Source: Diphasiastrum complanatum
Lineage: Eukaryota > Streptophyta > Lycopodiopsida > Lycopodiales > Lycopodiaceae
Direction of reading: 5' to 3'
DNA: 64,000 nucleotides
Assembly (NCBI GenBank): GCA_029204225.1
Contig: CM055108.1
Location: 12,649,955 to 12,713,954, forward strand
Shown: positions 13,686-52,577 of the stretch, in pieces
How positions within the stretch are numbered: the stretch's first letter is position 1
Layout of the letters: each line of letters begins with the position of its first letter
Translations under genes and position numbers: made by a program
Notes under the pieces: model-generated
Database searches by the model: none
What the model was told of the DNA's origin: nothing
Seen by the model: the letters and a program-made list of their open reading frames with translations, nothing else

Positions 13686-14303
13686 TCACAATGACCGATC
13701 ATTCTCTTCAGAATTTTGACGAGAAAGGTGTATATGCGCTCCATACGACGAACTCCTCATTGCGGCAGGGCCATGGTAGAAACAAAACCACAATGCCGAC
13801 TCTGTCGTAAGCGCTTCTTCTCTCTTCTTACTTTTCTGAGTAAGTTCTTCTGTCAAAAGAGAAGATCTACAGGTAGGACAAGTGATTTGGTTTTGGTCAA
13901 GCCATCGATCAAGGCAAGGCTTATGAAATATGTGAGAACAAGATGGTAACAGCCATACAGGATCTTCCTTTTCGTACTCACAAAGGCAAACTGCACAAAT
14001 TGCATCCTCTTCACAACAGAACCTCTCTGCGATTGAGTCCACAGTGACTTTAGTTAGTGAGTCCCGTATCTCATCACCAAAACTGCCACTGTGATCGCGG
14101 GGTCCTGATCCTTGGTTATGGTCTGATTCTCTCAAGTTCCCCCAAAATGAATTTCTTCTTCCCACATCTGGCGCGGCATGCCCAAGGTTGATTCCAACTA
14201 TTTCAAGAATCGAAAAAACAACATTTGTAATGACAGCCAGGGAAACAGTTGAATTCAAGATGCAAAGATCAGAGAACTGCAGGCGACTCATCCAAAATGC
14301 CAT
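13686..14303 (-). CDS. RING-H2 finger protein, probable membrane E3 ubiquitin ligase
   Basis: An uninterrupted 205-codon frame from an ATG at 14303 in good context (A at -3, G at +4) to TGA at 13686. The frame is open further upstream, but no ATG precedes this one. Residues 14-38 form one hydrophobic, membrane-like segment. A RING-H2 finger of the C3H2C3 type occupies residues 103-145, with Cys103, Cys106, Cys122, His124, His127, Cys130, Cys142 and Cys145 and the usual Trp134 that contacts E2 enzymes. The C-terminal 60 residues are polar. Such proteins transfer ubiquitin from an E2 to substrates, here probably at a membrane. It lacks the GLD motif of the ATL family, so the subfamily is open. 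It is intronless, with no disabling change seen, in sharp contrast to its neighbours. Confidence 0.85.
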   Translation of the reverse strand: MAFWMSRLQFSDLCILNSTVSLAVITNVVFSILEIVGINLGHAAPDVGRRNSFWGNLRESDHNQGSGPRDHSGSFGDEIRDSLTKVTVDSIAERFCCEEDAICAVCLCEYEKEDPVWLLPSCSHIFHKPCLDRWLDQNQITCPTCRSSLLTEELTQKSKKREEALTTESALWFCFYHGPAAMRSSSYGAHIHLSRQNSEENDRSL

Positions 14304-15086
14304 CTTCTTGCGAGTGCGGCGTGAATCAAATTTAACGCAGAAGACAAAGAGTGCTAAGATTTTACTGGAAACTTTCTGAATAGGCTTTGATTTCAACCTT
14401 CTCTATATCGCGTTCCCCGAAGCTTAACGTTGTTTCTGTTTCGCATAAACCCCCACTGTACTTGTAAGCTCCGGCTATATTTCTGTCAGTTACAAAGAAT
14501 TGAACAAATTCAGATCTGATGACGATCGTCTTGAAGCTTCAAGAAAATGTTGAAGGAATGTGAACCAAAATTATTCCAATACCTATCACTGGATTCGATC
14601 CAATATTGATAATCTTCTCCAAAGCAGATTATTTGACACTCCTTGATTATTGGTAATGCAATGTGAAGGGAAAGCTGATATACTAAAAACAAATCCTCTT
14701 CTTATAGCATCGACAGCACTGCAAAACGCAACTTCACATTAAAATATAAGAAATCGCGGACAAGCATGTGAAATAGGATAGCGGAACAAACTGCACTCAG
14801 ATTCTAATGCTTGTTTTTGTAACAGAACATATTACAACACATCAGATTGCTTCTGTTTATCTTCTATGATCTGTACTTATAGCAAATGGCAGAAGCTAAT
14901 ATTTACTCAATAAACCCGATCCACGAGCATTATAAGAATTAGGAATGAAATTGAAAATCACTTTCCACGAACTGACTTGAGATGGCCAGTTGTCAGTTCC
15001 CGATCCCGATACAGTCGTCAATCTCACTTTTCCTCATCGTGTGATACAAATGTCCGCGAACTATTGCTTCCACAGTATCACGATCG

Positions 15087-27167: not shown

Positions 27168-27825
27168 TTCAATCTCAATCAATCCTAAAAGTGATGGAGG
27201 ATTCACAAATAAAAGATCTAGATCCAAACTATGAGCTAGAACTAGCAAATTTGGCATTTAACTCCACATTAGGCACATAGATTTGATCAAATGAACCAAA
27301 GTAAAGTACATCAAGCTTCTCAGACCTATAAACAAGTTCAGAACTTTCCAATCCAAGCAATTAATGCATAAAAACACTCACATCCAATAGCTAGAACTTG
27401 CCACCAAAAGACAATGATGATAGAAGTGAAAAAACTCAATTTTTCTTGATAATTTGATGGAGATCCCATCATGTATTTATACATTTTCAGCTCGAATATG
27501 ATCATGTTAGGGCACCTATGAACTTTTCATACCCTAACCCTAATATCTAACCTAATAGGTCATTGGATCCACCCTGACTTGGGGTCAAGATCTCGAGATC
27601 CAAAAACAATGAAAAACATGCTATTTTTAGATCATAGAATTTCTCTAGCCTATCCAAACACATTTTTGCCTCATTTCAAAGATGCTATCACAATGTAATA
27701 TGAGGAATGAACTTATTGGAAAGCATCCTATGTGATTTGGCACGTGTGGCATCTATTTACATGGCCATTTTGCCAAGTACAATGCATGTGACCAAAAATG
27801 GTCAAGCTGGAATTGTGAAATTTCA
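27168..27825 (-). repeat. Copia-2 3' LTR
   Basis: About 658 bp, closely matching the inverted copy at 34883-35557. It starts (minus strand) at TGAAATTTCAC, immediately after the polypurine tract GTGAGGAGGAGTA, and contains TATAAATA as a likely promoter. The 3' end is placed by loss of similarity near TTGAA and lacks a clear CA. Confidence 0.8.
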
Positions 27826-27879
27826 ATACTCCTCCTCACAATCTAGCTAGATGATAACATAGCTTTACTCATTAAGCCA

Positions 27880-30800
27880 AGGGCTGATCTAAGCTTCTAA
27901 AAAGCATTCTTTTGTCAATATATCAGCTATGCATTCTTCACTTGAAACATGCTCCAATGAGACCTCCTTAGCTTGGACCATTTCTCTTACAAACTAGGGA
28001 GCAATCTCTATGTGTTTGCTCCTTGCATGGTAGATTGGATTGGATGCTAGGTGTTAGGCTGAGATGTTGTCATTTTAGATGAGTTAATGACACCTGATCT
28101 GATCACTTTGAGCTCCTCAAGCAACTTCTTGATCCATAGTACTTCCTTGGTTGTGGTTGTTAGAGCCTTGTACTTGGCCTCGGTTGATGAAAGAGATATT
28201 GTTTCTTGCTTATTTAATAGCCAAGAAACCACACCTTCTCCAATGTAAGTTGCAAAGACACTTGTTGACTTTCTATCCTTCTTGTCCCCTACAAAATCTG
28301 AATCACCATGCAAGTTAATGGATTCACCTCTATAAAGGATCCCAAAATCTAGTGTGCCTGAGATGTATCTCAATATTCTTTTGGCACATTTCCAATGGAT
28401 AACTAATGGATCTTGCATATTTTGACTAAGCTTGCAAACACTATAGCAAAGATCAGGTCTTGTTATGGTTATCCACATTAAGGATGCAATAAGTTCCCTA
28501 TAAAGAGTGACGTCCTTGAAGGATCTTTCATCCTCTTTATTGCTCACTTTTACATCATGCTCCATGGGAGTCTCTACATGCTTGCATCCATGCGTGTTAA
28601 ATATATTGAGTAATGAAATGGCATACTTAGATTGACAAATGAAGACATAATCTAAAGATATAAGTACTTCCATACCTAAAATGAAGTGCCAAAGCCCAAG
28701 ATCTACCATCTTGAACTCTTTGGATAGATCTAGCTTAGTTTTCTCAACACCTTCTAAATCATTTCCACTAAGTATGATATCATCAATATAAAGTAATAAA
28801 AGTACAATTCCTTTTGCACTTAATCTTATGTACAAGGTGGGATCATACTCACTATGAGTAAATCCAATAGAGATAAGAAAAGTATTGAGCCTTGTGTTCC
28901 AAGTTCTAGAAGCTTGTTTCGAACCATACAAGCTCCTCTTGAGATGACACACCTTGTCTTCCATACCTTGCTTGATGAATCCCTCGGGCTGCTCCATGAA
29001 TATATTCTCTTCCAAATGACCATTTAAGAAAGCATTTGACACATCCATTTGAAATAATAACCAATCAAAGTGAGAAGCAAGAGCAATGATTAGTCTTATG
29101 GTGACCATCTTTGCCATGGGTTCAAAGGTCTCATCATAATCTATGCCCTTTGATTGAGCATACCGCTTGGCTACAAGCCTTGCCTTGTGCTTAGAAACAC
29201 TCCCATCTTGAATCAACTTGAGCTAAGAAACTCACTTACATCCAATTACATTCCTATCCAAAGGTAAATCAACAAGCATCCAAGTATCATTCTCCATCAA
29301 TGCATTGTACTCATCACACATAGCTTGAAACCACACCTTTGATTCTAAAGCTTCACTAATATTTGAAGGTTCTTCAAAAGATGTGATGAAGGCATAAGAA
29401 GAAGGACTTTCCTCGGCTTGCTTACCCTTGTCCTTGTATGTGAACCTTAATGGCTCCATCCTTGACCTTGTGGAACTTCTTGGTGTGCTTGGTGTTCTTG
29501 GTTCTAGCTCCTCCTCATGATCAAGCTCCTCCTTATGACTTGTCTTTGTGATTGAACTTGAAAAAGGTAACTTGTGTGTCTTAGCCAAGGCACAAGCTTC
29601 ACATACCCTTTCCTCCTTTTCCAAAGATCTTGGAAGGCCGAGAGCAAGCTCCTCCTTGCACATAGCTTCCATGGACTTGGTTAGTGACCAAGCCTCTTGT
29701 GCCACAAGTCAAATGTGGTCATCTTGGTCTCCTCGGCTACCATCACAACTTGGTTAGGATTTACAAAAGCATCAAGCTTAAATAACCTCCCAAACCTTGT
29801 TCCCCTTGCTATGATCATCCCACTTTTCTTGATGTTGCATACATTAGTAGAGAACTCTACAATAAAACCATGATCTAAAAGTTGGCCAACACTAAGCAAA
29901 TTCTTAGTCATGATAGGAATGAAGAGAACACCATCTATCTTAGTCTTCTTGGAGGATCCTAAGCATAGGAGAATGGATTCCACACCTTCAACTTTACATT
30001 CATGATCATTTTCTATAAAAATGGACTTTATAGGTCCTACATAAGGTGTGAGTTGAGAAAAATACTCCCTTTTACTCGACATGTGGGAGCTAGCCCCACT
30101 ATCTATCCACCAAGGATCTTCACCTTTGAGATTTGATGATGAAAAGGTTGACATCATGAGTGAGTCCTCGTGATAGATCTCTTCCTCCTCTTGTCCAATG
30201 TTGGCTTGGCTTTGATCTCGCTTCCTCTTGAAGCATTGCGAGACATAATGCCCCATCTTGCTACAATAGTAGCACTTTATCTTAGATTTGTCCTTCTTGG
30301 GCTTGACTTGTGATGATGAGGATGTGGATCGTCCTTGATCTCCATCCTTTGCTTGCTCCCTATTGAATACTCCTCACTTGGTCTTTGCTTTGCCTTTTCT
30401 CTTGAAAAATAAGGCTTTGTCATCACTATCATTGATGGAGAGCCTCTCCATCCTTGATTTGATATGAGCCTTCCTACTCTCCTCAACCATCAACACACTT
30501 TGAAAGTCTTCAATTGTAGGCAAGTTTCCCATGATGGCATAGCTTTGGACAAGGTTAGTAAAATCACTACATAAGCCATTCAAAACTATTTGCACAAGCT
30601 CTCTCTCTTTAATAGGTTCACCAACATAAGTAAGCTCTTTGCTCAAATCTTTTACTCTCAAAACAAATTGATGTCCACTCTCACTCCTCCCTTGGAAGCA
30701 TTGAAGAACTTGGTTCTTGAGGAAAAGTAACCTTGAGGTATTCTTGGACTCATAGATCTTTTGAATAGTCTCCCAAGCCTCTTGGGCTGAGGTACATGCT

Positions 30801-31039
30801 CCTACTTCTTTGAGCAAATCATTTGCAACATTCATCTTAATAAAATGGAGTGCAAGCTTGCAACTTCTATTGTATTTAGTTGCTTCTTGTGGATGGATTG
30901 GCTCATCTTCCTCTCCATTCACAATATCCATCAAATCTTGCATGATAATGATGGATTCCATTCTTAACTTCCAAATCGAATAATTTGAAGAGTTCAATCT
31001 ATCACTAGAATCCAAAAGATAGGCACTTATGGATGTCAT
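27880..31039 (-). pseudogene. Copia-2 gag-pol lacking the integrase core
   Basis: Start ATG at 31039 (MTSISAYLLDSSDRLNSSNY). Gag carries the zinc knuckle YYCSKMGHYVSQCFKRK near 30240. The protease shows WWIDSGASSHM. The pre-integrase motif LWHKRLGH and CEACALAKTHKLPF follow, then the frame jumps to a charged linker (EELEPRTPSTPRSS): the DDE catalytic core of integrase is absent. The RT is well preserved (MDVSNAFLNGHLEE, catalytic LLYIDDIILSG), as is RNase H (DSDFVGDKKDRKST, SSTEAKYKAL). A frameshift near 28050 separates the last segment (NPIYHARSKHIEI..., ADILTK). Without integrase, the copy could move only with help from another element. Confidence 0.88.
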
Positions 31040-31882
31040 CTTCAATGATAAGGAGATAGATTCAAAGAAACAAGATAGATTGTACAAGATATGATCACTA
31101 CTAGCTATCTCACTCTCTTTGGGACCTGAGATGAATCACTCTCTGATTTATCAACAAGATCTAAGGTGATCTTGAGCTTGATCTATCTTCAAGATCCAAA
31201 CTAGATCCAAACTTACTATAGATTTGATCAAACTAGTCTCCTCCTTGATCTCGACTTCACAAGAAGGGTGAATCCACCTATACTGAACCAAAAGCACTTT
31301 ATAACACACAAATGTCTTACAAATAAAGCCTCTTAAATTCAGGTTGAATCACATTGACATATTCAATCACAAACCTATCTAAAACTGAGTAGAATAGAAA
31401 CACAAATTTCACTAGTTTTGCATTTCTAGATGAAAAACTCATCAAAACACTTGATCTGAACCTAAAAGGTGTATTTTAGGACCTTAAGAAGCCTAAGAAC
31501 GACCTAATTAAGCTTTCAAATTTTTGATCCAAACTTCTAAAGAGTGGTGGCATTCAAATCCGTATGAAAATCTTTACTAGGAGACATGTACTCCAAGATT
31601 CAACTCATAAGAAGTTTCTAATTTGGTTTTGTTGAATGGAAATGGGTCAATCTTGGTTCCTACAGCCATAACTCAGCAAAACAAGTTTCCTTTGATCTAT
31701 AAATGAAACCAAATTTGAAGGTACAATCACTAGATTAGCAACTAGTAGCAAGAGCAAAGCTAATACTACTCAAATCTAGGATCAAAGCTTGAGAAAATTA
31801 AATCTAAAGCTTACTTTTTATCAGGCTCTGATACCATAATCTTGCTAAGTCCTTTTGGGAGGAAGCTTTAGCATGTGCTAAC

Positions 31883-32538
31883 TTTGAACAGTATGGGATG
31901 ATGAACATTGATGTCTCTTTGCTAGTGTGCCTGAAGAGCCTTCTGGCTTTCCTCTCTTTATTCAACAGATGCCCAAAAAATGGAGATACAACAAAAATCT
32001 CCTTCGTGACTGTATATGTATATTTATGTACATAGTATGCACAAGCAGATTCAACTACTGTGTCTGAGATATATGAGGTCTTCTCTTTTAGCTCCCTACA
32101 ATGCGGGTCTTTGATATGCATTGCAAAATTAATATCATTTGTACGAAACATAAACTCCCCTCTGAGATCATCTATTTGCTTGGCTATATACAGGTCAAAA
32201 TAAATGTACCTCTCAGAATCAAAAAATGTGTCTTTAGGTTCATTTGGAAGTCTGATGTGCAACTCTTTATCAATTGCATCAACATCAGAAACAATCATGT
32301 CCACCACTGTATTTAGGTCATCCTCATGTATAGAAGGAGAATCGTGTAGTTGAAGATCAGGGGTTACGGGAGGACTCTCAACCAGTGGAATTGCAGACGT
32401 ACTAGCCAGATCTTTTCTAATGGGAGGAGGTGAGGGTGAAGAGCTGGGAGACCTGGGCTTGGGTTGCGAATGCTTGGGTTGTGCTTGCTTTCTATTTTTG
32501 TGGGGTGGGACAGGCCCCCTTTCAAGAGGAACTTGCCT
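31883..32538 (-). pseudogene. Ulp1 (C48 SUMO-protease)-like domain after a CENH3-like domain, copy A
   Basis: Continues the CENH3-like frame after a single TAG. A Pro/Ser/Lys-rich linker of about 75 residues comes first (SPSSSPSPPPIRKD). It is followed by about 140 residues with the pattern of plant transposon-type Ulp1 proteases: YISDTVVESACAYYV, then SPFFGHLLNKERKARRLFR and MFIIPYC. This corresponds to the stretch before the catalytic His-Trp. The segment carrying His/Asp/Cys is missing: the sequence meets a possible donor (AA, then GTTAGC) at 31883 and then the Copia-2 primer site. Ulp1 proteins cut SUMO precursors and remove SUMO from targets. The active site cannot be judged here. Similarity was read by eye. 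Confidence 0.6.
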
Positions 32539-32952
32539 CTATGTGAATCCAGACTTAAAAATGCTGTCATAGGTGTTTCGAAGCCTCGTGACAAGAAGCA
32601 TGTCCTTGGGCATCAGTGTCACCCTCTTGCCATGAATGGAGCACAACATCGAATCCTCAAACAATTTTGTCTGGAAGTCCTCGTATGCAGTATGGAGGGC
32701 CTCCAATGCAGTGATATTCCACCTCACTGCATAGGGCAGATGGGTGGTCATGTCTTGTGTAACCTCCCTCACAGCCCGGTAGAAGGCTGCTTTCAGGATC
32801 AGAAGTTTGGTGCTCCTCTGCAAGGCCCTGATGTCCCTCCACCATGGACAATGAGGTCTATCACATCCTTGCGGACGTACGGGTTCAGATGTCTAGGGAT
32901 GAGACGGTTGAACGAAACTGGTAAGCCTAGTAGTTTGCTTCGTCCGAGCCAT
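32539..32952 (-). pseudogene. CENH3-like histone H3 domain, copy A
   Basis: From the ATG at 32952 the protein begins MARTKQT, identical to the first seven residues of histone H3 including Lys4. After a diverged tail with one TAG (32893-32895) it continues [19 protein letters not shown], aligning with the H3 alphaN/alpha1 region. Then comes an extended loop 1 with the Trp typical of centromeric H3 (PYAVRW), alpha2 ([15 protein letters not shown]) and [19 protein letters not shown], which is closer to plant CENH3 (DSMLCAIHxRRVTLM) than to canonical H3 (DTNLCAIHAKRVTIM). It ends [13 protein letters not shown], longer than H3, then TAG in frame with the Ulp1 part. It lies behind a good promoter. 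It might be a degenerating gene or a transposon-borne copy. Confidence 0.75.
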
Positions 32953-33019
32953 TGAGGCCGAATATCTATATAACGTGAGGACAGAGACACAGCAGAAGAG
33001 ACACTGAGAACTCTAATGG

Positions 33020-33172
33020 TGATATCGCTATGACGCGAGAGAGTGGCAGCGTCAGGCGAGGAGAGGCAGGGGCTCGCGTGATGGCAATACTGGGAAAGTA
33101 AAGCTAATATCGCTACGACGCGAGAGGGTGTAAGGAACAGGCATGGAGAGGAGGTCGCTCGCGTGATGGTGA
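33020..33172 (-). repeat. Two ~86-bp imperfect repeats in the putative 5' UTR of copy A
   Basis: Units at about 33020-33090 and 33106-33172 share ATATCGCTA(T/C)GACGCGAGAG at one end and CTCGCGTGATGG at the other. They are GC- and CpG-rich compared with their surroundings and lie between the TATA box and the ATG. Confidence 0.75.
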
Positions 33173-33224
33173 TATCACGAATGCATTTTGTATGGATGCA
33201 ATCAAACGTTAGAGCGAATTGTGA

Positions 33225-33460
33225 GAAAACCTGTACAATCCCTGGGAATGGACTTATATAGGAGAGAAAAATTGGCACGTGTGAACCAGCGACACGTGGC
33301 TCAGTCAATTGCTGACATGTGGAACCACACGTCTGTATATGTACATGTGAAACTGCACGTACTAATCAACATGTGTGGGATCCCACGTGGGGACACGTAC
33401 CCGAATGGATCAATGACATGTGTTCTCGCACGTATAGGCTCACGCGTGTGGTCACGTGGC
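33225..33460 (-). promoter_or_regulatory. Promoter of copy A: TATA box with ACGT-box cluster
   Basis: On the gene's strand a TATA box, CTATATAAG (33253-33261), lies about 300 bp upstream of the ATG. Directly upstream of it are eight ACGT cores in about 180 bp (at 33277, 33294, 33329, 33357, 33385, 33395, 33430 and 33454), several as full G-boxes (CACGTG), plus several CATGTG variants. ACGT elements bind plant bZIP/bHLH factors and occur in histone and ABA-responsive promoters. The transcription start would be near 33225. Confidence 0.6.
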
Positions 33461-33479
33461 GGGATCATTACATGAAAAC

Positions 33480-34644: not shown

Positions 34645-34880
34645 TCAAAGAACATCACTATTTTTTGGTAATGGCAAATTAGGATTGAACCAGTCCTGAA
34701 GTCTTGGACGACTTCCTTTTGGGAGTTTGATTGCCATCCAATTGAGTAGGTAACTTGCATAGTGCCCAGTGAGGCGTGTGCATGAATCATTCGAGTGTGC
34801 GGATTGGTCAATGAAAGTTGAAAGACTCGTATGTGCTTGTCTAAAAGTTTGGAATTCGCCAGGGATTAGAGGCCAGTTAT
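34645..34880 (-). pseudogene. Unknown C-terminal coding fragment
   Basis: A minus frame open from the LTR edge to a stop at 34645 reads QYNWPLIPGEFQTFRQAH, then HYASYLLNWMAIKLPKGSRP and LQDWFNPNLPLPKNSDVL. The composition (Trp, Pro, aromatic spacing) looks protein-like, but no family was recognised. The N-terminal part is cut off by the LTR at 34883. Confidence 0.35.
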
Positions 34881-34882
34881 AT

Positions 34883-35557
34883 TGAAATTTCACAATTCTA
34901 GCTTGACCATTTTTGGTCACATGCATTGTACTTGGCAAGATGGCCATGTAAATAGATGCCACACGTGCCAAATCACATAGGATGCTTTCCAATAAGTTCA
35001 TTCCTCATATTACATTGTGATAGCATCTTTGAAATGAGGCAAAAATTGTTTGGATAGGCTAGAGAAATTCTATGATCTAAAAATAGCATGTTTTTCATTG
35101 TTTTTGGATCTCGAGATCTTGACCCCAAGTCAGGGTGGATCCAATGACCTATTAGGTTAGATATTAGGGTTAGGGTATGAAAAGTTCAGAGGTGCCCTAA
35201 CATGATCATATTCGAGCTGAAAATGTATAAATACATGATGGGATCTCCATCAAATTATCAAGAAAAATAGAGTTTTTCCACTTCTAACATCATTGTCTTT
35301 TGGTGGCGAGTCTAGCTATTGGATGTGAGTGTTTTTATGCATTAATTGCTTGGATTGGAAGGTGCTGAACTTGTTTAGAGGTCTGAGAAACTTGCTGTAC
35401 TTTACTTTGGTTCATTTGATCAAATCTATGTGCCTAATGTGGAGTTAAATGCCAAATTTGCTAGTTTTGGTAACTAGTCTTGATTCTAGCTCATAGTTTG
35501 GATCTAGATCTTTTATTTGTGCATCCTCCATCACTTTTAGGATTGATTGGAATTGAA
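34883..35557 (+). repeat. Solo-like LTR of the Copia-2 family, inverted
   Basis: 675 bp on the plus strand, collinear with the 27168-27825 LTR along its whole length, with few substitutions. No primer site or polypurine tract adjoins it, so it is a solo LTR or a truncated insertion. No target duplication was found. It contains ATGTATAAATACATG (promoter). Confidence 0.8.
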
Positions 35558-36193: not shown

Positions 36194-37870
36194 CTATAGT
36201 GCATTGCTTGGGCAATGGCTCAAGATCATGTGAACTTGAGGCCGTGTGTCTACCTCTATTCTATCGTTGGCGCTTTCTAGACAAGGCCCTTTTTTTTTTT
36301 TCCCTTCATATAGGTCTAACCATTTATCCATAACTCCACAATTATAAAGCATGAATGTAGAAATTTTTTCTCGTTGGAAGGGTGCCAACCTATGGACCTT
36401 TCCCATCCCTTAAATTTTTTCGCTAGTTACCTCTTCGGCTTCCTCATCACACCACAATAGTGGAGCAAATGAATGTAGTTGGTGCAAAATTTCAATAACA
36501 TAAAAGAGAGATTCATGTACTAACCATTCCTCTAAAATGCTACCTTCAGGTCTTGTCTTTTGACGCACAAAATCTTTTAAGATTTTCATGTACCTTTCCA
36601 TAAAAAACATCCACCTAAAAAGTCACAAATGGTTAAAAATAAGTGTTTTATTTAATGAGTTCATGTATCAATTGATTTAGTTTAAATACACATGCAAAAG
36701 ATAATTTATGCACTTATACCTAGTATGCACTGGACCTGCAATAGAAACTTCTTCAACCAAGTGCACCAATAAATGCACTTGTGAGTCCATGATGGAAGTC
36801 GGAAAATATCTCTCAAACATGCACACAATCTTATCTTTTGACAAGCACCCACGAATTGACAATGGATAGATGAATTGAATCATCTTTAGCCAATCATGAG
36901 ATTTGAGACCTTGCAACTTTCCATCCACTGTGAATGATGACCGTAGAGAATGGGCAAAACCAGTTGGTGTTCTAATGTCATGAATAAAGGAGTGCACATG
37001 GTTAAGTTCCTCCTTACTGAATGTCCAAGGTACTTTTGGATCATGATCTTCACCATCCTTTATCCAATATTCTTTTTTGGTGTTTGATTCTTTTAGATCG
37101 TGCCTTGCAGCAATGGTATTTTTTCACCAATCAAGTGTTTCCAAATAGATTCACCCACATTTTTAAATCTGTGCATGAGATCAAGTGGGTAATTGATCAA
37201 AAGGTTATTCCAATATTCCAAACGATGAAATATAGATAATCTTTTCATACCATCGATTGGCTTTGCTTGAGATTCCTCCCATAGTATTCGCCAATCTTTC
37301 ACGGATCCTCTTTGGAGGCATCTCTCTCTCAACTCTTCCTCCAAAACCTCTTCTATGAGTGTCTCTGAATGGATGGCCTTCATGCAAGTATTTACGATGA
37401 TTTTCATAAACTACTTTTTTGAGACTAAAAGAGTATCTTTCCACAAGATTTGGCCCGCACAAAAAACAAGCCTGTCCAACAAATGGATACTATCAATCAC
37501 TACTAAAAAAAGTATATGTCAGAGAATAATTATAGCCATTGTAGTATATCATGTAAATGTCAAGAATTACTAGTTGTATGTAATTGTAAACAAACTCCTA
37601 TGTACACAAGATAGACATTGTTTGAATGATTATTAGAGCATTCACCTAATCCTGGATAGTCATGCATTGTCCACATTACAATGGCATGTAGTGTAAACTC
37701 CCTCTCATGTATGGGGCACGAAATGTCATATGCTTTTATCCCCTTCCACAAATCTTCCAAATTTCCATCATCTCTTTTAAGCCTTGATGTAGATGACGAG
37801 ATAATTGCTTTATATGTGGATCGTTGTATTGCATTTGTTGTCTACGTCGACCATTACGAGGATTATTGTC
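36194..37870 (-). pseudogene. CACTA (En/Spm) tnp2-type transposase, spliced, decayed
   Basis: Minus-strand exons in family order: LEDLWKGIKAYD with MWTMHDYPGLGE (about 37850-37640); CGPNLVERYSFSLKKVVY (about 37460); after a frameshift near 37315, LEYWNNLLINYPLDLMHRF; then a DUF4218-type region with GLKSHDWLKMIQFIYP and VHLLVHLVEE. A precise intron at 36615-36719 (AG, then GTATAAG; TTTTTAG, then GTGG) restores HTRWMFFMERYMK, the family's RWMYPFERYMK. A TAA at 36410 interrupts the C-terminal part (REKISTFMLYNCGVMDKW). The protein would bind CACTA ends and catalyse cut-and-paste. The N-terminal third of the family is missing upstream, where the SET exon lies. Confidence 0.82.
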
Positions 37871-38219: not shown

Positions 38220-39182
38220 TCACATTTGACTTATTGTCTTTTGCAAACATTTGGGTAGAGGACGGTTGAAACTAGTCTTGATGAACAATTCCTCCCCAAA
38301 CCTGATAGATCTAGTGGCACGGACCATTACATAAGTGCCCTTTACATTCCTAGTAAAATATTCTTCTTTTCCATTGGTGCATTCCTCAAAATCACAATTC
38401 ATCAATAGAGGGTGGCCAATGGAACTATTTATATATGCAGCAATGTTTTCATGCACATCTGAACGTCCATCAATGTATGTACGATTTGCCCTTGAGATGT
38501 TGCCTCCTTGCATGCATTGCTCCTCTAAAGAACAAGCATTTGAATTCAAGCCATATACTTGCATCCTCCATTGATGATGACACAAAGCATGCCAATCAAT
38601 ACTACTCAATGCAAAAAGGCCCAAACCAGCCTCAAGAAATTGTTTACTAGGTTTGATCATGTACATTCGACCCCAATACGTAAATGGTGTTCCATTTAAT
38701 GGTAATGGTGATTGGAGTGGCCAACACAAATATCTACTTCTAATAAAAGCTTTTACTAATGGTTGCAAGCTAGGTGGAAGAGGAAGGTCAGACAAAGAAC
38801 CTAGAATGTCTTTTGACACATCAACAGTGCATAGTAATTTGCAATTATCTTTCAAACTAGTCATAATACGTCCAAGACGTGTTATCTTTTTTAAAGAGGT
38901 GGTCATGTTTGTGGAATCCACATGGAGTATTGTGGAGAACTCACGTGCAACATCTAGGATAGGTGTGGTTGGGTGGTAAGAATGTTCTAGAGATTCGAAG
39001 ACATGGATTGAGTCACAAGACATTGATGAACTAATTATATCATGCAAGGGGTCATCATCAACAAGAGCATCATCTAGGGCCAATGATAATCTAAAATCAA
39101 TATTCATGTGATTTATCCTATCAATAATATTCTTGATCTCTCTTGCAACTCTTTTTCTTGAAACCAACTTATGGTCCTTCTT
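38220..39182 (-). CDS. SET-domain protein exon (putative lysine methyltransferase)
   Basis: A 320-codon open exon starts directly after a splice acceptor (CAACTTTTGCAG) at 39183 and ends at a TGA at 38220; it has no ATG of its own at the start. The C-terminal part is SET-like: EAGLGLFALSSI (the GxG motif), HENIAAYINSSIGHPLLMNC (the NHSC-like core, here with Ser), then VMVRATRSIRFGEELFIK. The N-terminal 170 residues are unassigned, and the post-SET cysteines are absent. SET proteins methylate lysines on histones, but the NHSC-equivalent is unusual (INSS), so activity is uncertain. The tnp2 exons start about 350 bp downstream on the same strand. Confidence 0.65.
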   Translation of the reverse strand, partial: KKDHKLVSRKRVAREIKNIIDRINHMNIDFRLSLALDDALVDDDPLHDIISSSMSCDSIHVFESLEHSYHPTTPILDVAREFSTILHVDSTNMTTSLKKITRLGRIMTSLKDNCKLLCTVDVSKDILGSLSDLPLPPSLQPLVKAFIRSRYLCWPLQSPLPLNGTPFTYWGRMYMIKPSKQFLEAGLGLFALSSIDWHALCHHQWRMQVYGLNSNACSLEEQCMQGGNISRANRTYIDGRSDVHENIAAYINSSIGHPLLMNCDFEECTNGKEEYFTRNVKGTYVMVRATRSIRFGEELFIKTSFNRPLPKCLQKTISQM

Positions 39183-39211
39183 CTGCAAAAGTTGAAAATG
39201 TTAGATGTATC

Positions 39212-39716: not shown

Positions 39717-39765
39717 GTGAATGAGTCTATTATGGGTGATTGAATATGGAAATCAAGATTAGCTA

Positions 39766-39930
39766 CATCTAACCATTCTATTTGGATTTTTTCTTTTAGA
39801 AGCAAGTGAGAGATTAACTTCATCTAATCATTCCATTTGGATTTTTCTTTTTAGAAGCAAGTGAGAGATTAACTTCATCTAAATATTCTATTTGGATTTT
39901 TCCTTTTAGAAGCAAGTGAGAAATTAACTT
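39766..39930. repeat. Three 55-bp tandem repeats
   Basis: Units at 39766, 39821 and 39876, each CATCTAA...TTTGGATTTTT..TTTTAGAAGCAAGTGAGA, with only a few differences. Confidence 0.9.
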
Positions 39931-41060
39931 CAAAGTATCGTGGCACTCATCCTATCGCTCAATATTTATTGGCCAAACTATACTTGAAGTGTCATAAGGG
40001 TCAAAGGTTAAAGCATTTCCAAAAACACTTTAAAGAGTTTATCTCTCGTACTCTTGGATTCTTTGTGTGCACTCCATTGGCCCAAATATGATCGTTGACA
40101 ATCCTCCTTGTCCGAATCCCAAGGCCTTTGCATTGTGTGCATGTACATGGTATCCTCTCATCATATTCTGGCTAAAACTGGTCCAATAGCTTTCAAGATG
40201 GAATGATCAAAATCAAACAATCAGTCATATACTCAATTGATTCATTGCCCACTCAATCACTCATTTGATTAATTAATATTTGGCTTGAGTTAGTTAAAGA
40301 TAAATCTTTTTAGATTGGCCTAGTGTGCCATGGTATCTCATGACGAGCAATATGCATTCGCCCTTTCTATCTATGGTTGCTTTGTATGCAAGAAATCATA
40401 TACTAGATAACACACCATTGATCAACATCTTTATTACAATGCTAAATGATATTTCAACTAATTACTCTGATTTCATATAAGGTTATATAGTTCACACACC
40501 AACAATTAAAAAGATTTATCATATAGGTCACATATCACTAAGGTCCTCAATATAACATAAATGCTTTTGATCATGAATCTAAAATGAGCCCATGCAACCA
40601 TTTAAGAGGCCACATGACAAAAACAATTTTTTTTTATTTGATCATGTAATTATGTCATCAAATTATATCAAATCTATGACACCTAGATTATCAATAAACT
40701 AAATGTTTTATGGCATCACCGATTTGACATAAATTATGTCATAAAATATTTAAAAAACTTGTCAAATTACTTGTTTAATAATAATATGTACTATTTCTTA
40801 TATCATGATTTTGTCTTGTATGTCAAATCTCAAGAAAAATAAAATTTATAACAATATAAAACTAGTTTTAACAATTAAATACTACCATAATGATCTTCAA
40901 ATTGATTTTCTTACATTCCATCATATTAAAAAAAATATTTTATGTAAAATCCTACAATAAAATATTTCATAAAATCTAGGAAAGATTATGAGAATATTGA
41001 ATGACATTTGAAGCGTGCAAGCCCATGTGGGGGACCCTCTCACATGCCAAGAGAGGGGAA
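39931..41060. other. AT-rich sequence without a recognised gene
   Basis: No supported frame or domain. It precedes the dyad cluster and the gene at 41435. Confidence 0.4.
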
Positions 41061-42420: not shown

Positions 42421-45400
42421 CTCTACAACTTCAAGCCATAATCACAAGATGAAGATACATATCTTAGAATCCTCTTGGCCATCTTCCAATGATGGATCTT
42501 AGGATCTTGCATAAATTGACTCAATTTGTGCACACAAAAACTTAGATCGAGCCTAATAATGGTAAGCCAAATCAAGGAGCCTACAAGACTCCTAAAAAGT
42601 GTGATGTCCTCAAAGGATATTTCATCACCTTTATTAGAATATTTTACAAATTGCTCCATTGGAGTATCTATGCTCTTAGAATTTTCCATATGGAATTTTT
42701 TCAACATAGAGTGAGCATATCTAGATTGGCATATAAAGACATGATTTTCACAAAAAACAATTTCTAGGCCTAGGATGTAGTGTATCTCTCCTAGATCTTG
42801 CATTTTAAACTCACATCCAAGTGCTAGCTTAGTTTCATCAACTAGCTTGATACAACTTCCACAAAGAATAATGTCATCAACATAAATTAGAAGAATGACA
42901 ATATTGCTATCAACAAACTGTAGATACATGGAAGGATCATAGTCACTAAGAGTAAATCCTAGTGAGATAAGAAAAGAATTAAGTCTTGAATACCATGATC
43001 TTGGTGCTTGCTTGAGTCCATAAAGACTTTTGAAAAGCAAGCACACTTTGGACTCATCCTTGATGAATCCTTGAGGCTGTTCCATATAGATCTCCTCCTC
43101 AAGATAACCATTTAAAAAAGCATTGGATACATCTAATTGGAACACCTTTCACTTAAAGAAACAAGCAAGAGAGATAAGAATTCTTATTGTCACCATCTTT
43201 GCAATGGATACAAAGGTCTCCTCATAATCAAGGCCATGGATTTAAAAACATCCTTTGGCACATAATCTTGCTTTATACTTGTTGATGGTGCCATCATGAT
43301 TGAACTTGATCCGAAATATCCACTTGCAACCAATCACATGCTTTTTGGATGGAGGATCCACAAGCTCCCAAGTATTGTTGGTGATCAATGCATCATACTC
43401 TTGCTTCATGGCATCATACCACTCCTTGGTATTGAGTGCCTTTTGTACATTCTTTGGCTCTTCAATAGAGACATAAAAAACATAATTAGTGGAATCAAGA
43501 TCCACTTGTTTGCCTTTGTTAACATATGAGAGCCTCTTAGGCTCGGATCTATCTCTCATGGATCTTCTTGGTGAGAAAATCCGAGGAGAGTCTTCTTCAA
43601 ATCTCAACCCCATCACATCATGATTGTCTTCAAAATCAATAATTGGTGATGTATCCATAGACTTCTTGATCTCGGCCTCTTCAAAAGATGAGTGTTGATC
43701 TTCATGAAAGACAACATCTCTACTTTTAATAACTTGAGAAGTAGAGAGTATAAAAACTCTATAGGCCTTCTTGGTGGATGAGTATCCAACCATGATCCCT
43801 TTGCATGCACTAGGATCTTCCTTCTTCCTTGTTTCCAAGGTTATATGGACAAAGCATATGCATCCAAAAACTCAACCTTAGGCTTCTTCAAATATAAGAT
43901 TTTATATGGTGACTTTCCTCCAAGATCTATATGTGGGAGCCTATTGCAAAGATAATTTGCACAATTAATGGCTTCTCCCCAAAAATCTTTGGGCAAAGAT
44001 GCCTCAATTCTCATAGATTTTTCACATTCACATAGAGATCTATTCTTTCTCTTGGCCACTCTATTTTGAGATGGAGAGTAGGCACAAGAGAACTCTCTTT
44101 TGATGCCTTCAAGCTCACAAAAATCATGAAATGTATTGGAGATATATTCACCACCTCCATCACTTCTAAGAGCTTTAATCTTGAATGAGAATTGCTTCTC
44201 TACATAAGCTTTGAAAATAAGGAAATGATCAAACACCATAGATTTAGAAGCAAGAAGATATATCCAAGTGAATTTTGCGAAATCAACAATGAAAGTAACC
44301 AAACAAGTGGCTCCTCCCTTGCTTGTAGTTGATGAGAAATGCACATCCTAGTGGATTAACTCCAAAGGATGCTTTCTTTTGATAGAAGATCTTGTAAATG
44401 GCTTTTTGTGAGATTTAGCAATAGCACAAGCCTCACAAGGCTTGATCTTCTTGGAGAATGATTTTGGCAAGCCAATAGCTTTGGCTTCTTTGATGATAGA
44501 GATCATGGATTTGTAGTTGGGATGTCCCAAACTCCTATGCCATAATTCCTCCATAGAGAGCCTTGTTCACAAGAGCAACATTACAAGCATTCACATACTC
44601 ATTTGGATCTAGTTTATAGATGCCTCCAAATCTAGATCCTAATGCAAGTATCTCATCATTCTTCTTGATAGTGCAAGTATCAACATTGAATTTTACATCA
44701 AGGCCATTATCAAGCAATTGGCCAACACTAATAAGATTCTTAGTAAGCTTAGGTACATAAAGAAATTTAGAGAGAGAAAGAACTTTAGAGGATGCAAGCT
44801 TCAAGGAAATGTTCCCTATGCCTTCAATAGGACATTCAAAATCATTTGCAGTGTATATTGATTTCTTGACTCCATCATAAGGTGCAATATAAGAGAAAGA
44901 GTCCTTGGAGCTACACATATGTGAAGAGGCTCCACTATCAATATACCATAGGCCATCCTTCTTGAAAGGAGTATATGAAAAACTAGAGACCATAAGAGAT
45001 CCCTCTCCATCACTTGCAATAGTGTCTTCCTTCTCATTGGAAATGTTGGCTTGCTTGAGTTGATTCTTCTTCTTGAAGCAATTGGTGGCATAATGGCTTT
45101 TCTTGCCACAATAAAAGCACTTGATCTTCTTCTTCGAAGCATTAGAGGAATCATCTTCCTCCTCACCTTTGGATTTGACTTTGTCCTTGCTTGAGGATTG
45201 TTGATGTTGGTTCTTGCTCCTCCCTTTGTGCTTATCCTTGGCAAAGAGAGCTTTGCCATGATTATGAGTGAGAGAAAGCTTGTCCATCCTCAAGAGCTTG
45301 TACTCTTGTCTTGAATCTTCAGAAATTAGCACACTTTGGAGAGCCTCCGAACTTGGTAGCTCCTCCTTAATGGCATAGGATTGGACAAGGTTATCAAATT

Positions 45401-45692
45401 CACTTCTCAATCCATTGAGAATGACTTGGACTAGCTCATTTTGTTTGATGAAATCACCAATACAAGCAAGTTCTCTATGAATATCTTTTACTCTCAAAAC
45501 ATAACTAAATGCACTCTCATCACTCTTTTGGCCACCTTGAAAGATTTGATTCCTAAGAGTGAGAAGCCTAGAGGTTTTCTTAGCCTCATAGATAGTCTTG
45601 AGACAATCCCAAGCTTCTTTGGTTGTTGTACAAGTACCTATCTCCCTCAATATCTCATTAGAGACATTCATCTTAATGTAGTGGAGGGCCAT
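42421..45692 (-). mobile_element. Copia-3 gag-pol, truncated at both ends
   Basis: Minus-strand copia polyprotein: gag from MALHYIKMNVSNEILREIG (N-terminus missing), zinc knuckle CFYCGKKSHYATNC, protease YIDSGASSHMC, pre-integrase ELWHRSLGHPNYKSM with CEACAIAKSHKKPF, and integrase with ALRSDGGGEYISN, where the catalytic Glu motif is changed (NRVAKRKNRS instead of NGVAERKNRT). RT follows in two pieces (KWIFRIKFNHDG; MFQLDVSNAFLNGYLEEE with LLIYVDDIILCG) across a frameshift near 43150-43240. It ends at WKMAKRILRYV at 42423 without RNase H or LTR, abutting the gene at 41435-42330. Confidence 0.88.
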
Positions 45693-45770
45693 CCTCTAAA
45701 AATCTACCTAAAACTACTCCAAAAAGCAAGAAATAGTGAAAATACAGCTATATTAGTTAGTGAAAACCTA

Positions 45771-46050: not shown

Positions 46051-46239
46051 GGAGGTTAGCTCAAATGCTCAATATCATTGCTTATGGAGAAACCTTTACT
46101 AGCATAACCAAAAAGCATGAAAAATGGAATTAACAAATCCACAACAATAGCATAAGCAAGAGTGATTAGCAATTGAGGATGTGTAATAAAGTTTATTTTT
46201 AAACAAACTGGATTACACACACCCTCATCAGACGTATAA

Positions 46240-46783
46240 GGACAACACATATAAGCTCCAATGATCATTGCAATCTAAAAACAATAAATTTATGAGAATG
46301 AATGTGAAATCAAAATTCATATGAAAAATTCAACTTAATAAAATCTGAAAAAAAAACACTTACTTTATTATGTATGGGAGCACAAGAATTAGAGTCCCCG
46401 GTCTGATGTATTGGAGCATATCATTGTGTAGAATTTTGAAATCAGAAAAATCAAATGCAGCCATGAATTGAAGGGGAAACAATGCTACATCTATGAACAA
46501 TGGGGTATGGAAAAACCCAATCCAGTATTGAATTGCCCCACCTCCTATATTGTCACCTAGCATTTTATCCCTACTTTCTAATTCACTTGTATCTAATTTA
46601 GAAAGGGGAAGACCAACGTTGGTCTTTGGCACCTCAAAACTATATCGAGGACCTAAAGCTTTAAGATATGTGTTTAACAATTGGTCATACTGTATATATT
46701 GAGGAGTATTTACAAAGGCAAGTGTAGGGGGTGACGAAAGTAATACAGATAAACCACAAAAATAATTGTCATTCAAAATTGAT
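46240..46783 (-). pseudogene. Ulp1-like protease part, copy B
   Basis: Resumes on the other side of the solo LTR in the same frame: NDNYFCGLSVLLSSPP, then KMLGDNIGGGAIQYWIGFF and TLILVLPYI. Exon 1 ends at 46364 before a strong donor (AA, then GTAAGTG). An 89-bp intron ends in TTTATTGTTTTTAG (acceptor at 46275). The next exon contains CNDHWSLYVLSLY, the Ulp1 catalytic His-Trp, but one base out of frame with exon 1. The catalytic Cys region was not found. Compared with copy A, the intron sits at the same place and phase (after LPYIIK versus IIPYCSK). Confidence 0.6.
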
Positions 46784-47533
46784 TGTAGTGGGTTTATTTC
46801 CTTGCCCAACCTGAATCCAAGAACTAGTCAATCTAGCATCAAAGAGACGAAGTTAGATGTCACGTGAAGGTTTATTCCCATGAGAGCAATAATATAGTTC
46901 ATATTTCAACATGAATGAAAGATCCACATCTAATTATAACATCGATTAACCCTAACCATTAACACTACAATCATTAACACTACACATCCACAACAAAGAT
47001 AGCTTACTTTTTTTCTCTCTCCCTTTCTCTCTCATAAAAAGTATAATAACATACAATCCCAATAACATTCAGATCCAACAATTAGCAAAAGCCAAAGAAA
47101 GCATGAGAGATGGAGGAAAAGTGATAGAGAGCAAGGACATTCATCAATCCATTCCTGAAGAGAACCAATCTGCTTTATTGAAATGAGGAAATGAACTTTT
47201 GTAGGAACTCGAGTTGGTCCCTTTTTATAGTAGAGAGGAGGACCTTGGCCTTTGAAGCCTATTGGTCCATTTTTGCCTCCCTAATTATTCAAATTTAAAA
47301 TAGAGTGAGAACCATCCAAATTGGAGGGAAACCCAACTTTATTCACTAACTTAACATTTAGGCCCTGTGACATTAAAAGTCCCGCAAAAAGATAGAAATG
47401 TCCTTTCATTGACTTTCTAATTAATCAAATCTCTATGTGATCATCAGGTTGGACTTACACACGCATGGTGCCAAATTCCTCTCACTTATCAACTAGGGTT
47501 AGGGTTGCCTTGGGATCTACAAACCCTTCAACA
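46784..47533 (-). mobile_element. Solo L1 LTR inserted in copy B
   Basis: A complete TGTTGAAGGG...CCCACTACA LTR of the L1 family (750 bp), flanked by TTGAT on both sides (46779-46783 and 47534-47538), a perfect 5-bp target duplication. Removing it with one TTGAT restores an open frame through VKVESILNDNY. Solo LTRs arise by recombination between the two LTRs of an inserted element. Confidence 0.93.
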
Positions 47534-47930
47534 TTGATTCTACCTTTACATTTACAAAATCATCTAGATCATTTCCTAGAACAAGAGGTAGGGAGCTAAT
47601 ATTTATGGGGGTAGGAGGAGACTAAGATTTTAAAGGAGGAGGAGATTTATTAGGAGAGGAAGATTTAGCAAGAGAAGATAAAAATGGAGTTTTGGGAGGA
47701 GAAGAAGGAGACTTAGGAGGAGATTGCCTACTAGATAGAATCTCATCCAGAGGAGATGGCTTTGAAAAATCCCTCATTTTATTAGGAGGGTCATGAGACC
47801 TCCTCTTCTTTGAAACACTCCCACTTTGTATAAGAAAAACAAGCTGAGATGGTTGAGATTGCTTTCGTTTTCTCCTCTCTGAATCTTGTTTTGGAGGAGA
47901 GGAATGAGCATGTCTAAAGTACTATACAAA
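47534..47930 (-). pseudogene. Pro/Ser-rich linker between the H3-like and Ulp1-like parts, copy B
   Basis: In frame with both flanking domains. It is basic at first (ERRKRKQSQPSQ; SKKRRSHDPPNK, possible nuclear-localisation signals), then repetitive Pro/Ser (SRQSPPKSPSSPPKTPF), then acidic (LGNDLDDFVNVKVES). One TAG at 47622-47624. It is longer than the copy A linker but of the same character. Confidence 0.6.
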
Positions 47931-48320
47931 TTTGTCATATGTGTCCCATAGCCTGAACACAATGTTGAAATCCTTGGGCATGATGGTCACGCTCTTGGCA
48001 TGGACAGGTGCAACAACAGTTTCTGAAAAAAATTTCACTTGGAAATCCTCATATGTAGTGTGCAGCGCCTCTATTGCCGTTACAATCCATCTCACATCTA
48101 TAAATAGACTTCTTGTAACCTGTCTGATGGATCTCTGTATGTGAGCTTTCGGAATCAGAAGATTATTGGTCTTCTATAACTTTCGAATATCCTTGAGCCA
48201 GGGTGGGTCTCTTCTTCTGCCCCTTGGCCTAGGAGGAGGTGGTGGTGGACGAGGCGGTGGTGGTGCATTTCCCTGTGATTGGGATTCCACCAGGGTGGAC
48301 TCGTAGTTAGAATTAAAGTA
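47931..48320 (-). pseudogene. CENH3-like histone H3 domain, copy B
   Basis: Pro-rich tail (APPPPRPPPPPPRPRGRRR), then LKDIRKL*KTNNLLIPKAHI, which aligns with CENH3 KEIRxFQKQTNLLIPAASF. The TAG (48174-48176) falls exactly on the Gln of the H3 motif RKYQKST. Next are the loop-1 Trp (IDVRW), alpha2 (EALHTTYEDFQVKFF), a degenerate SETVVAPVHAKSVTIMPKD, and FRLWDTYDKFV, then TAG (47931-47933) in frame with the linker. The true N-terminus is cut off by the Copia-4 insertion at about 48327. Confidence 0.7.
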
Positions 48321-48327
48321 GAATCAT

Positions 48328-48568
48328 TGTGTTACTGTACTGTGGGTCCTGTCCGTGGATAAGGATCAGTTGGCCTCGCCACGAGGCAAGTCAATGGGAC
48401 ACGCATCCCGCCAATGGCAACCTGGGTCATGCATGGGTTGCCTGAGTGAACAACTATATATACAGTGTAATTTCATTTTGAGAAATACAGTTGCTATGTG
48501 AGCTTGCGGTGGAGAGTGTTTTCTGTCTGTGTTACTGTGTAGCATGATATGTGTTCCTGTGCAAAGCA
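48328..48568 (+). repeat. Copia-4 5' LTR
   Basis: About 241 bp from TGTGTTACTGTACTG to GCAAAGCA. Ends ten bases before the primer site. The exact start could be 48328 or 48330. Confidence 0.75.
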
Positions 48569-48590: not shown

Positions 48591-49903
48591 CGTACAAGGA
48601 GTGTACACAGTACAACATCGCCATTGAAGAGAGCTTCAGGAGAACTGTCTTCTGAGAGTTCAGGGTTTACGGCAGGTTGAAGACAGAAAGAGAAGCTTTG
48701 GTGCACGATTTCTAGTTTATAGAGGCTTGTCAAGCTCAACAGAGGGATTATTAGCCTGTGCATAGCATCAGATAGGAAAAAATCTGGTGAAAAATTGACA
48801 ATTTTGAAGCCAATTGAAAATTGAAACCAGGTTTGGGGTAACGATTTTGTTTATACATAACTAGTGATTTCTTTGCTGTTTGTGCACCGTTTTGGATGTC
48901 GTAAGGACAGGAAGGAAGCTAATCACATTGTCAACCAACCTTGGAGAGATTCTGAGGTTTATGTCAGAGATTTGTCTCCAGACAGATAACCTAGCAGATT
49001 TGCGGTAAAAGGTGAAAAAAGCCACTTTGTCAAGTTGAGCTAAAATCACGGTTTCTCCACGGAATTTCTTGAGTGAATACTCTACAAACTTGGTATCAGT
49101 AGGGCGACCCTGCTCCAGGCCTCAGATTGTGTTCAAATCGATCCATAGACGAGTTAGATCAAGCAAAAACGAGTGTGAGGAGACGCGGTCGTAGACAAGG
49201 AGGTCACAGACTATTCACGCGTAGAACCAGGGTGAAACCATAGCGTTTCAGAGTGGGTAGCGCTTACAAGACTCTCCATTAGTGCACAAGAGTGCTCAGT
49301 TTCATTGGATAGAGAAGCTACAAGATCTACGGCTCAGTTCGTGCTATCCAGAAGGAATATCCATGGTTGGATTAGAATCAACCATTGGATGGAGTCTGAA
49401 GGGTTGTTGAAGAGGGCCCTAAAGAAGTGAAGTGCATTTTGGCCTTCAACTTCATTAAAAATTTTCATATTGAAATTGGAGTTGGGTCCCTTCACAAGTG
49501 AAGAGTGAAGTTTCTTCAAGGTGAAGAAACAGTTCAAAAACTAGAAAAGTCCCTATTTTTGGGTCCTTTGCCCGTTTTAACCAAAACGAAAGGCTATAAC
49601 CTCCAAAGGAAGGGCACCTGGACTGTACCTACAAGTACGGTACAACAAAACAGAGTGATTGCAGTAGAGAAAGTGTTCGGAGTGCGTCAGAAGTAATTTC
49701 ACCATTCCACTGGGCACGTTGTTGGGAGTTGACAATTGAGTGCATTTCAGAAGGCGACGCTGATTTGGCTTTCAAATCGGTGGAAAAGCGGCGAGTGGCC
49801 TGGTAAGGGAAAAAGTGCAAGTCATTATTTTCGACTTCTGACATCATTGTTGGCCTCGACATATTGTTTTTAGCCTACGACAGAAGTTTCAAGCAGTTTT
49901 GCG

Positions 49904-52220: not shown

Positions 52221-52577
52221 AAGCATATACTAGTCAGAACCCAATAGGTATACTTATACCCTACAAGGCCCATGCACCACTAGTGAGAGCCCAATAGGTA
52301 TACTTATACCCTCCAAGGCCCATGAACCACTAGTAGTGCACCGTGACACCTCACTGGACACCTCTGCAGCCTATCTGGGCCACGTCATCCGATTTTCCAA
52401 TGACTCACTGATGACCCATACAAATCCACCATCAAGTGTTTTAGGTCTACAACCATTAATTATGACCATGTACATATAAGGGTCCCAATTCTCTTATAGT
52501 CACGATTAACTTGCAGATTGTTTGTCTACCGGTCCCTAGCGTGGACACACTACCTGAGACCAGTCATGGGCATGACA
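52221..52577 (-). repeat. Gypsy-2 3' LTR, truncated
   Basis: Begins (minus) TGTCATGCCCATGAC right after the polypurine tract. It contains two tandem ~57-bp units (52221-52336), each with a GGGTATAAGTATACC promoter-like core. The far end is lost where Copia-4 begins. Confidence 0.75.

Follow-up and report, generated by a model that had tools for sequence, protein, structure and literature searches.

Results

An H3-like and Ulp1-like frame is joined to Copia sequence

The window, meaning the whole 64-kb stretch of Diphasiastrum complanatum DNA that was analysed, contains on its minus strand a reading frame that begins with MARTKQT at position 32952, ends at 31804 with a final TAG, and is interrupted internally only by TAG at codons 20 and 138. 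The section at 31885..32952, which comprises 356 codons with the two TAG stops, aligned in translation with relatives over amino acids 1-357 and appears to be a remnant of exon 1 of a transposon's H3-Ulp1 gene. Within it lie, all on the minus strand, a histone H3-like region (32542..32859), a Pro/Ser/Lys-rich linker read from the translation (32308..32541) and the N-terminal half of a putative Ulp1/SENP-like domain (31885..32307), the last recognised from the alignment, from spliced relatives and from a profile search of the PDB. When each TAG was read as Gln, residues 37-125 of the frame matched the Pfam Histone profile (7.2e-21) and H3 chains were the closest relatives in the PDB (~ 4e-20), in both cases far above chance. 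The original prediction for this locus had described a MARTKQT start, an H3 fold, a Trp in loop 1, a Pro/Ser linker and a single frame with TAG as the only stop, and all of these are present in the translation. It also named the type of the Ulp1-like domain correctly, although 31883..32952 includes no more than the N-terminal half of it.

Homology to other copies of the element runs in the window from 33475 down to ~ 31880 and is followed by Copia sequence, so that residues of the frame past ~ 31880 are Copia-side sequence and not part of the element. Because the element homology stops there, the window copy lacks the catalytic exons, which carry the His and Gln/Cys motifs. At the junction (31804..31880, minus strand), the end of the element homology is followed by TGGTATCAGAGC, which we take to be a Copia primer-binding-site-like sequence. 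A query spanning the junction gave 1,035 candidates in the genome and was covered in full in two of the 40 places scored, both on contig C17; these are the window and a copy on the same contig, and the region is ~ 99% identical between them. Copia gag-pol frames adjoin the remnant at 28047..31135 (minus strand; open frames, with the family assigned by eye), and no direct repeat pair flanking them was listed in the repeat comparison of the window. That the frame might be a domain of a Copia protein was rejected, since the whole junction was found only in the window and its near-identical copy among the 40 scored places. By alignment, the window copy is a dead fragment that stops at exon 1 and is fused to a Copia element.

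An inverted repeat has one arm at 27168..27828, an LTR-like end (by eye) beside the Copia pol, and the other at 34880..35557; the arms are 94.7% identical over 680 columns and enclose the H3 remnant together with the Copia gag-pol. More Copia-type gag-pol frames were recognised by eye at 5978-8985 (plus strand), 42423-45695 (minus strand) and 49874-52297 (plus strand). An open frame at 13689-14402 (minus strand) contains a RING finger (zf-RING_2 6.1e-13), and a tandem repeat unit is present at 39756-39932 in three copies, 55 bp apart. A 326-aa open frame at 38223-39200 (minus strand) matches the Pfam SET domain above its cut-off (4.6e-5) and lies ~ 1.1 kb upstream of a frame at 36680-37123 with DUF4218 (1.2e-8), a domain of CACTA transposons; the SET frame is perhaps a second transposon-borne chromatin gene.

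The gene is carried by an abundant DNA transposon family

The window's own assembly (1.745 Gb, 5,176 contigs) was searched with the histone part and with the N-terminal Ulp1-like part (Ulp1-N) of the frame. These gave 6,441 and 4,296 first-look candidates, respectively, counts that are not copy numbers, and all 150 places scored for each part were matches, those of the histone part with 82-100% identity and E values from 2.5e-68 to 1.7e-52. At least 73 places were listed for both parts among the 150 scored for each, and in all 73 the two parts lay on the same strand at one spacing (478-664 bp, with modes at 552 and 657 that represent the one spacing on two strands). A lone host gene was rejected on the abundance of candidates for the histone part.

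Twenty loci of 9.9 kb were sampled, most of them chosen for long open frames, together with the window copy's three closest matches. The protein aligned as one piece, over amino acids 1-357 or more, in 17 of the 20 loci; the exceptions were L008 and L019, which aligned in two pieces, and L020, which aligned to amino acid 335. Extension of seven loci and comparison of copies located the common ends of the element, the left being CATTA(G/T)AGGAGTTCCAAGGCCC and the right CTCAAAACTCCTCTAATG, which form short imperfect inverted ends (in short form, CATTAGAGGAGTT...AACTCCTCTAATG). Searches with the end sequences yielded 839 and 1,180 candidates, with 40 of 40 scored places matching in each case, and two complete copies with both ends measured 9,979 and 10,087 bp. 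Sharp common ends, inverted repeats and many copies place the element with the class II TIR transposons. No target site duplication, including the 8-bp hAT type, was seen by eye in any of three two-ended insertions (E08, E14 and L019).

Further genes of the element comprise a plus-strand gene at the left, DDE-like by eye only, while its middle and right parts hold minus-strand frames. The larger open-frame pieces outside the histone gene gave no Pfam match above cut-off and no Mutator or hAT transposase domain, a test that is weakened by introns. One minus-strand frame in the right part of the element (L008:5705-5935; IEIQVRKNNSTLTTIEVEEDWTL...) resembles a ubiquitin-like fold by eye and had no Pfam match. 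On these comparisons the frame in the window is what remains of a gene belonging to a family of ~ 10 kb DNA transposons whose terminal inverted repeats are short. The original prediction had missed both that this is a multi-copy transposon gene and that the window copy is a fragment.

Predicted splicing completes a probable fusion of histone and Ulp1-like domains

Alignment of 14 copies revealed three small introns after exon 1, with lengths of 99 (106 in one copy), 92-98 and 94-111 nt, and the splice-site patterns derived from that alignment were all present in nine of the 12 copies tried. All sites follow the GT-AG rule apart from a donor in L005 and the second acceptor in each of L001, L009 and L012. 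Joined in this way in life, the exons would give a predicted product of ~ 517 aa. Exon 2 encodes KHWSVHVIS...MNSLHATHS and exon 3 QQDDAFSCGWYSIWN; beyond exon 1, copies other than that in the window have a QQDDAFSCGW motif along with the KHW, and the His and Gln/Cys motifs are retained in most spliced copies. The spliced product was free of stops in three of the nine copies, and all motifs were kept in one of them. Of the other two, one has lost a splice acceptor, some of the tail and the catalytic Cys, while the second lacks the Trp of the HW motif and five histone residues.

The 517-aa protein matched the Pfam Histone profile at 2.6e-23. The Ulp1-like assignment in the original prediction found no backing in Pfam, where neither the 517-aa protein nor five domain sequences had a C48 match at E ≤ 10, and in NCBIfam the domain sequences produced unrelated matches only (best 0.0013, for one member). 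A single typed query, a mix of copies, had two matches in the PDB, a dynein chain (0.51) and then a Ulp1-like SUMO protease (0.73). A profile built from subfamilies A (three copies), B and C had four PDB matches at E ≤ 10, all of them SENP proteins (SENP8 at 0.024 and 0.031; SENP7 at 1.4 and 1.4), with alignments that cover either the greater part of the domain or the Q-C end.

The motifs of the Ulp1 family run HW ... N/D ... Q and Cys, marking the His, Asp and Gln/Cys places. In the element protein His, Gln and Cys are present, and an Asn codon stands at the usual Asp place in 12 of 14 aligned family-A copies (of the remaining two, L004 lacks the stretch and L011 is unaligned there) and likewise in copy B, a diverged relative described below. 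Protease activity is uncertain, because Asn replaces the usual catalytic Asp; papain-type enzymes use Asn. From the motifs and profile matches, the second domain is likely to have a Ulp1-like fold. AlphaFold models were too poor for use, with pLDDT averaging 36.5 over exon 1 and 53.7 over the histone part, and helices in these low-confidence models sit, by eye, where the histone fold requires them. The models prove nothing, since Foldseek returned no match for them at E ≤ 0.001.

The product of this transposon gene, spliced to ~ 517 aa, is very probably a protein in which an H3-like N terminus and a divergent H3 fold are connected by a basic Pro/Ser linker to a Ulp1/SENP-like cysteine protease domain with Asn for Asp.

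The fusion is kept in diverged subfamilies

A second remnant in the window, copy B (46231..48331, minus strand), appears to derive from a diverged subfamily. Its H3-like part, with 39.7% amino acid identity over the histone part and a Pfam Histone match of 2.2e-11, is followed by a Ulp1-like part with DHWSLYVLS. Subfamily C, found as a second element within locus E01, has the same order at 41% (histone) and 25% (Ulp1-N) amino acid identity, and a frame with QNDAFSCAWF lies farther along. For subfamily D (L031), the histone part gave 2.9e-26 and no Ulp1 part was recognised within 2.1 kb (L031:1-2101). The histone-like frame in this stretch faces a minus frame, which includes a 25-aa match to the middle minus-strand frame of the element (E 2e-4, single comparison). 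The histone fold was found by Pfam in all of A, B, C and D. The fusion of a histone with a protease-like domain, as originally predicted, is thus upheld by the 73 of 73 co-listed places and by the order kept in two diverged subfamilies. The possibility that the two parts are always separate genes in relatives fails in that relatives hold both in one gene, although subfamily D has no recognised Ulp1 part in 2.1 kb.

The family-A histone fold is not closer to CENH3 than to H3

The original prediction had read the histone as CENH3-like. The letters concerned are present in family A, where the loop-1 Trp, DSMLC and RVTLM are as in Arabidopsis CENH3, but most of these features are peculiar to family A and absent from its sister subfamilies. 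The loop-1 Trp is retained in copy B, DSMLC is absent from B, C and D, and loop 1 is four residues longer than that of H3 in A and not in B, C or D.

The folds were compared with a host H3 gene (L032) and with the CENH3 sequences of Arabidopsis, maize and rice. Identity of the family-A fold was 43-48% to host H3, 43-45% to Arabidopsis CENH3 and 42-45% to maize and rice CENH3. The fold of subfamily C had 48% identity to host H3 versus 44-48% to plant CENH3, and that of subfamily D 52% versus 45-47%. Copy B had 36% versus 31-38% and leans slightly to Arabidopsis CENH3 (38%). A small unrooted tree of 12 sequences and 97 columns, with Cse4 but no host CENH3 among them, split A-D from H3 plus CENH3 with a support of 93. 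Weak Pfam matches of the window frame to CENP-T_C (0.002) and CENP-S (0.0037) fell below the cut-offs.

A host CENH3 was not recognised among the best 150 of 5,209 candidates obtained with the Arabidopsis CENH3 fold, in which the top identity was 56%; the matches read were L032, which proved to be an H3 gene, L031 and copies already sampled. The contigs C1-C23 hold 135 of the 150 scored H3 places, spread over 21 of these contigs with local groups (e.g. C3 at 20-21 Mb), and no preference for any single site is obvious among the scored copies. A centromeric reading of the locus was not sustained, the family-A fold being no nearer to CENH3 than to host H3 and the copies being scattered over 21 large contigs, and a CENH3 origin of the family-A histone is not supported by these comparisons.

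Short sites are clustered upstream of the gene

The upstream stretch of the element in the window (32953..33475, minus strand; the element homology starts at 33475) contains CACATG/CACGTG-type sites and a TATATAAG box. Nine such sites occur within 850 bp upstream of the window copy's ATG, versus a maximum of six in 200 shuffles. Across the 19 family-A copies, 15 had more of these sites (6-18 per 850 bp) than any of 200 dinucleotide shuffles, and four (L009, L011, L012 and L019) were not above shuffles; subfamily C has eight upstream sites. In one element, ACATGTG occurs 11 times within a 700-bp upstream stretch and nowhere else in that element. Seven or fewer sites were counted in 369 of 384 half-overlapping tiles from the seven extended loci, these promoters included, and in the window eight or more occurred in two of 149 tiles, both over the H3 upstream stretch.

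VANC proteins are reported to act through, or bind, dense arrays of short motifs in their own elements (PMC5735166). The parallel with the upstream cluster is suggestive because VANC acts through such arrays in its own element. By this analogy the cluster could be a VANC-like array; a plain G-box promoter recognised by factors of the host is as likely.

Differences shared by several copies are mainly silent

Nonsynonymous and synonymous differences per site (N/S) were compared among 19 exon-1 rows, that is, 22 less L016, L018 and L020 (near-duplicate or partial), a sample biased by the choice of most copies for the length of their open frames. Over exon 1, N/S was 0.82 for differences in single copies, 0.41 for those in 2-3 copies and 0.27 for those in at least four. 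The corresponding values were 0.93, 0.24 and 0.18 for the H3 fold, 0.90, 0.38 and 0.25 for Ulp1-N, and 0.81, 0.41 and 0.33 for the linker; the N-tail showed no clear drop (0.55, 0.87 and 0.52). Note that the class of at least four copies is small, with 19 N and 20 S differences overall, 5 and 8 in the H3 fold, and 5 and 5 in Ulp1-N. Since the multi-copy differences are mainly silent and singletons are near neutral, the pattern suggests that the protein was under selection while the element spread and that copies later decayed in place.

Most examined copies are decayed. C>T change affected 10.7% of CG, 9.5% of CHG and 1.6% of CHH positions (22 rows), and the two TAG stops of the window copy fit decay of this methylation type; some stops in other copies are not of the C>T CG/CHG type. 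Recoding of TAG as a sense codon was rejected, as most other copies keep a sense codon at both places and the CG/CHG excess explains the stops.

Discussion

The fusion protein is fairly likely to help the element rather than the host, and with moderate confidence we regard it as an accessory chromatin protein of the transposon, perhaps an anti-silencing factor. For the mechanism, only a tentative proposal can be made by analogy. The protein would enter or bind chromatin through its histone fold, for which H4 or a histone chaperone is the probable partner, and its protease domain would take SUMO off silencing factors on the element or in its vicinity. Removal of SUMO would then let the element escape silencing, as VANC does for Arabidopsis VANDALs by another route. 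Weaker silencing is to a transposon's advantage. SUMO and the SUMO-ligase-like PIAL2 have been studied together with MOM1 in Arabidopsis silencing (PMC6084981), and a chromatin-bound deSUMOylating protein would be expected to counter such silencing.

It is somewhat unlikely that the protein is instead a targeting or accessory factor of transposition, in which the transposition complex would be anchored to particular chromatin by the histone fold, with the Ulp1-like part being inactive as a protease and serving a structural or substrate-binding role. The Asn in place of Asp in 12 of 14 aligned family-A copies and in copy B would suit such a role, as would the weak C48 signal. Most spliced copies nevertheless keep the His and Gln/Cys motifs, papain-type enzymes use Asn, and the scored copies have no obvious preference for a single site.

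A passive hitch-hiker, made of histone and protease fragments that were captured by chance and are functionless, is improbable. The decay of most examined copies is in keeping with it, as is their excess of C>T change in CG and CHG contexts, and the damaged H3 of fungal hAT elements offers a precedent, the hAT-borne H3 of Pseudocercospora fijiensis being reported as mostly truncated and mutated (PMC6710886). Against this, differences found in at least four copies are strongly silent in both domains, and the architecture is kept in a subfamily at 25-41% amino acid identity. That the gene is a host gene derived from CENH3, with a product that marks centromeres and deSUMOylates proteins at them, is highly improbable, given the very many transposon copies at scattered genome positions, the split of A-D from H3 plus CENH3 (support 93 in a small unrooted tree of 12 sequences and 97 columns) and the lack of the loop insertion and DSMLC in B, C and D, even though the loop-1 Trp, DSMLC and RVTLM are shared with Arabidopsis CENH3, copy B has 38% identity to that protein versus 36% to host H3, and weak CENP-T_C and CENP-S matches occur below the Pfam cut-offs.

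The protein shares with SENP/Ulp1 proteins (C48; SUMO and NEDD8 proteases) the motif order HW...N/D...Q and Cys and the profile matches to SENP8 and SENP7, and differs from them in having no Pfam C48 match, in its Asn for Asp and in its fusion to a histone. Family A resembles plant CENH3 in the MARTK start, the loop-1 Trp, DSMLC.IH and RVTLM, whereas A-D split from the H3 plus CENH3 group and most of these features are absent from the sister subfamilies.

Several transposons offer parallels to the accessory chromatin protein proposed here. The Ulp1 genes KIU/KAONASHI occur in VANDAL-type Mutator-like transposons (PMC13317346); these and the VANC system have in common with the present element a plant DNA transposon, a Ulp1-type domain in an accessory gene and dense short motifs in noncoding DNA (PMC13317346, PMC5735166). 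In contrast, the excerpts of those papers mention no histone fold, and no Mutator transposase was recognised here; the KIU/VANDAL elements are described there as non-TIR, whereas the present element has short TIRs and upstream sites of the CACRTG type. Transposons of the hAT group in Dothideomycetes carry histone H3, are ~ 9.5 kb long with TIRs and reach hundreds of copies, so that both cases involve an H3 captured and amplified by a TIR DNA transposon, with transition-type decay (PMC6710886). The fungal elements differ in that their H3 is mostly truncated and no protease is mentioned in the excerpts of that paper (PMC6710886), while the multi-copy differences here point to selection. They also have an 8-bp target site duplication and a hAT domain according to the same source, neither of which was seen in the present element. 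Fungal DNA transposons that encode TET/JBP dioxygenases likewise carry an enzyme acting on chromatin marks, and differ in enzyme, host and element (PMC12730594). Among the best-matching titles in the open-licence literature, no paper on a histone-Ulp1 fusion or a histone-carrying plant transposon was noticed. Ulp1 in VANDAL-type elements and H3 in fungal hAT elements are already in print separately.

A bolder and unlikely extension of the preferred reading is that a plant transposon lineage has long used a histone variant of its own, in which an H3-like protein with a deSUMOylase fused to it would enter or bind element chromatin and erase SUMO-dependent silencing, with the upstream CACRTG array as promoter or loading site.

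The finding raises the question of whether a transposon can deliver an enzyme to its own nucleosomes via a histone fold. A selected fusion with thousands of first-look matches in one genome, in an order kept in very diverged subfamilies, would be a parasite's direct weapon against chromatin silencing, and it would also show that a selfish element can evolve a histone variant.
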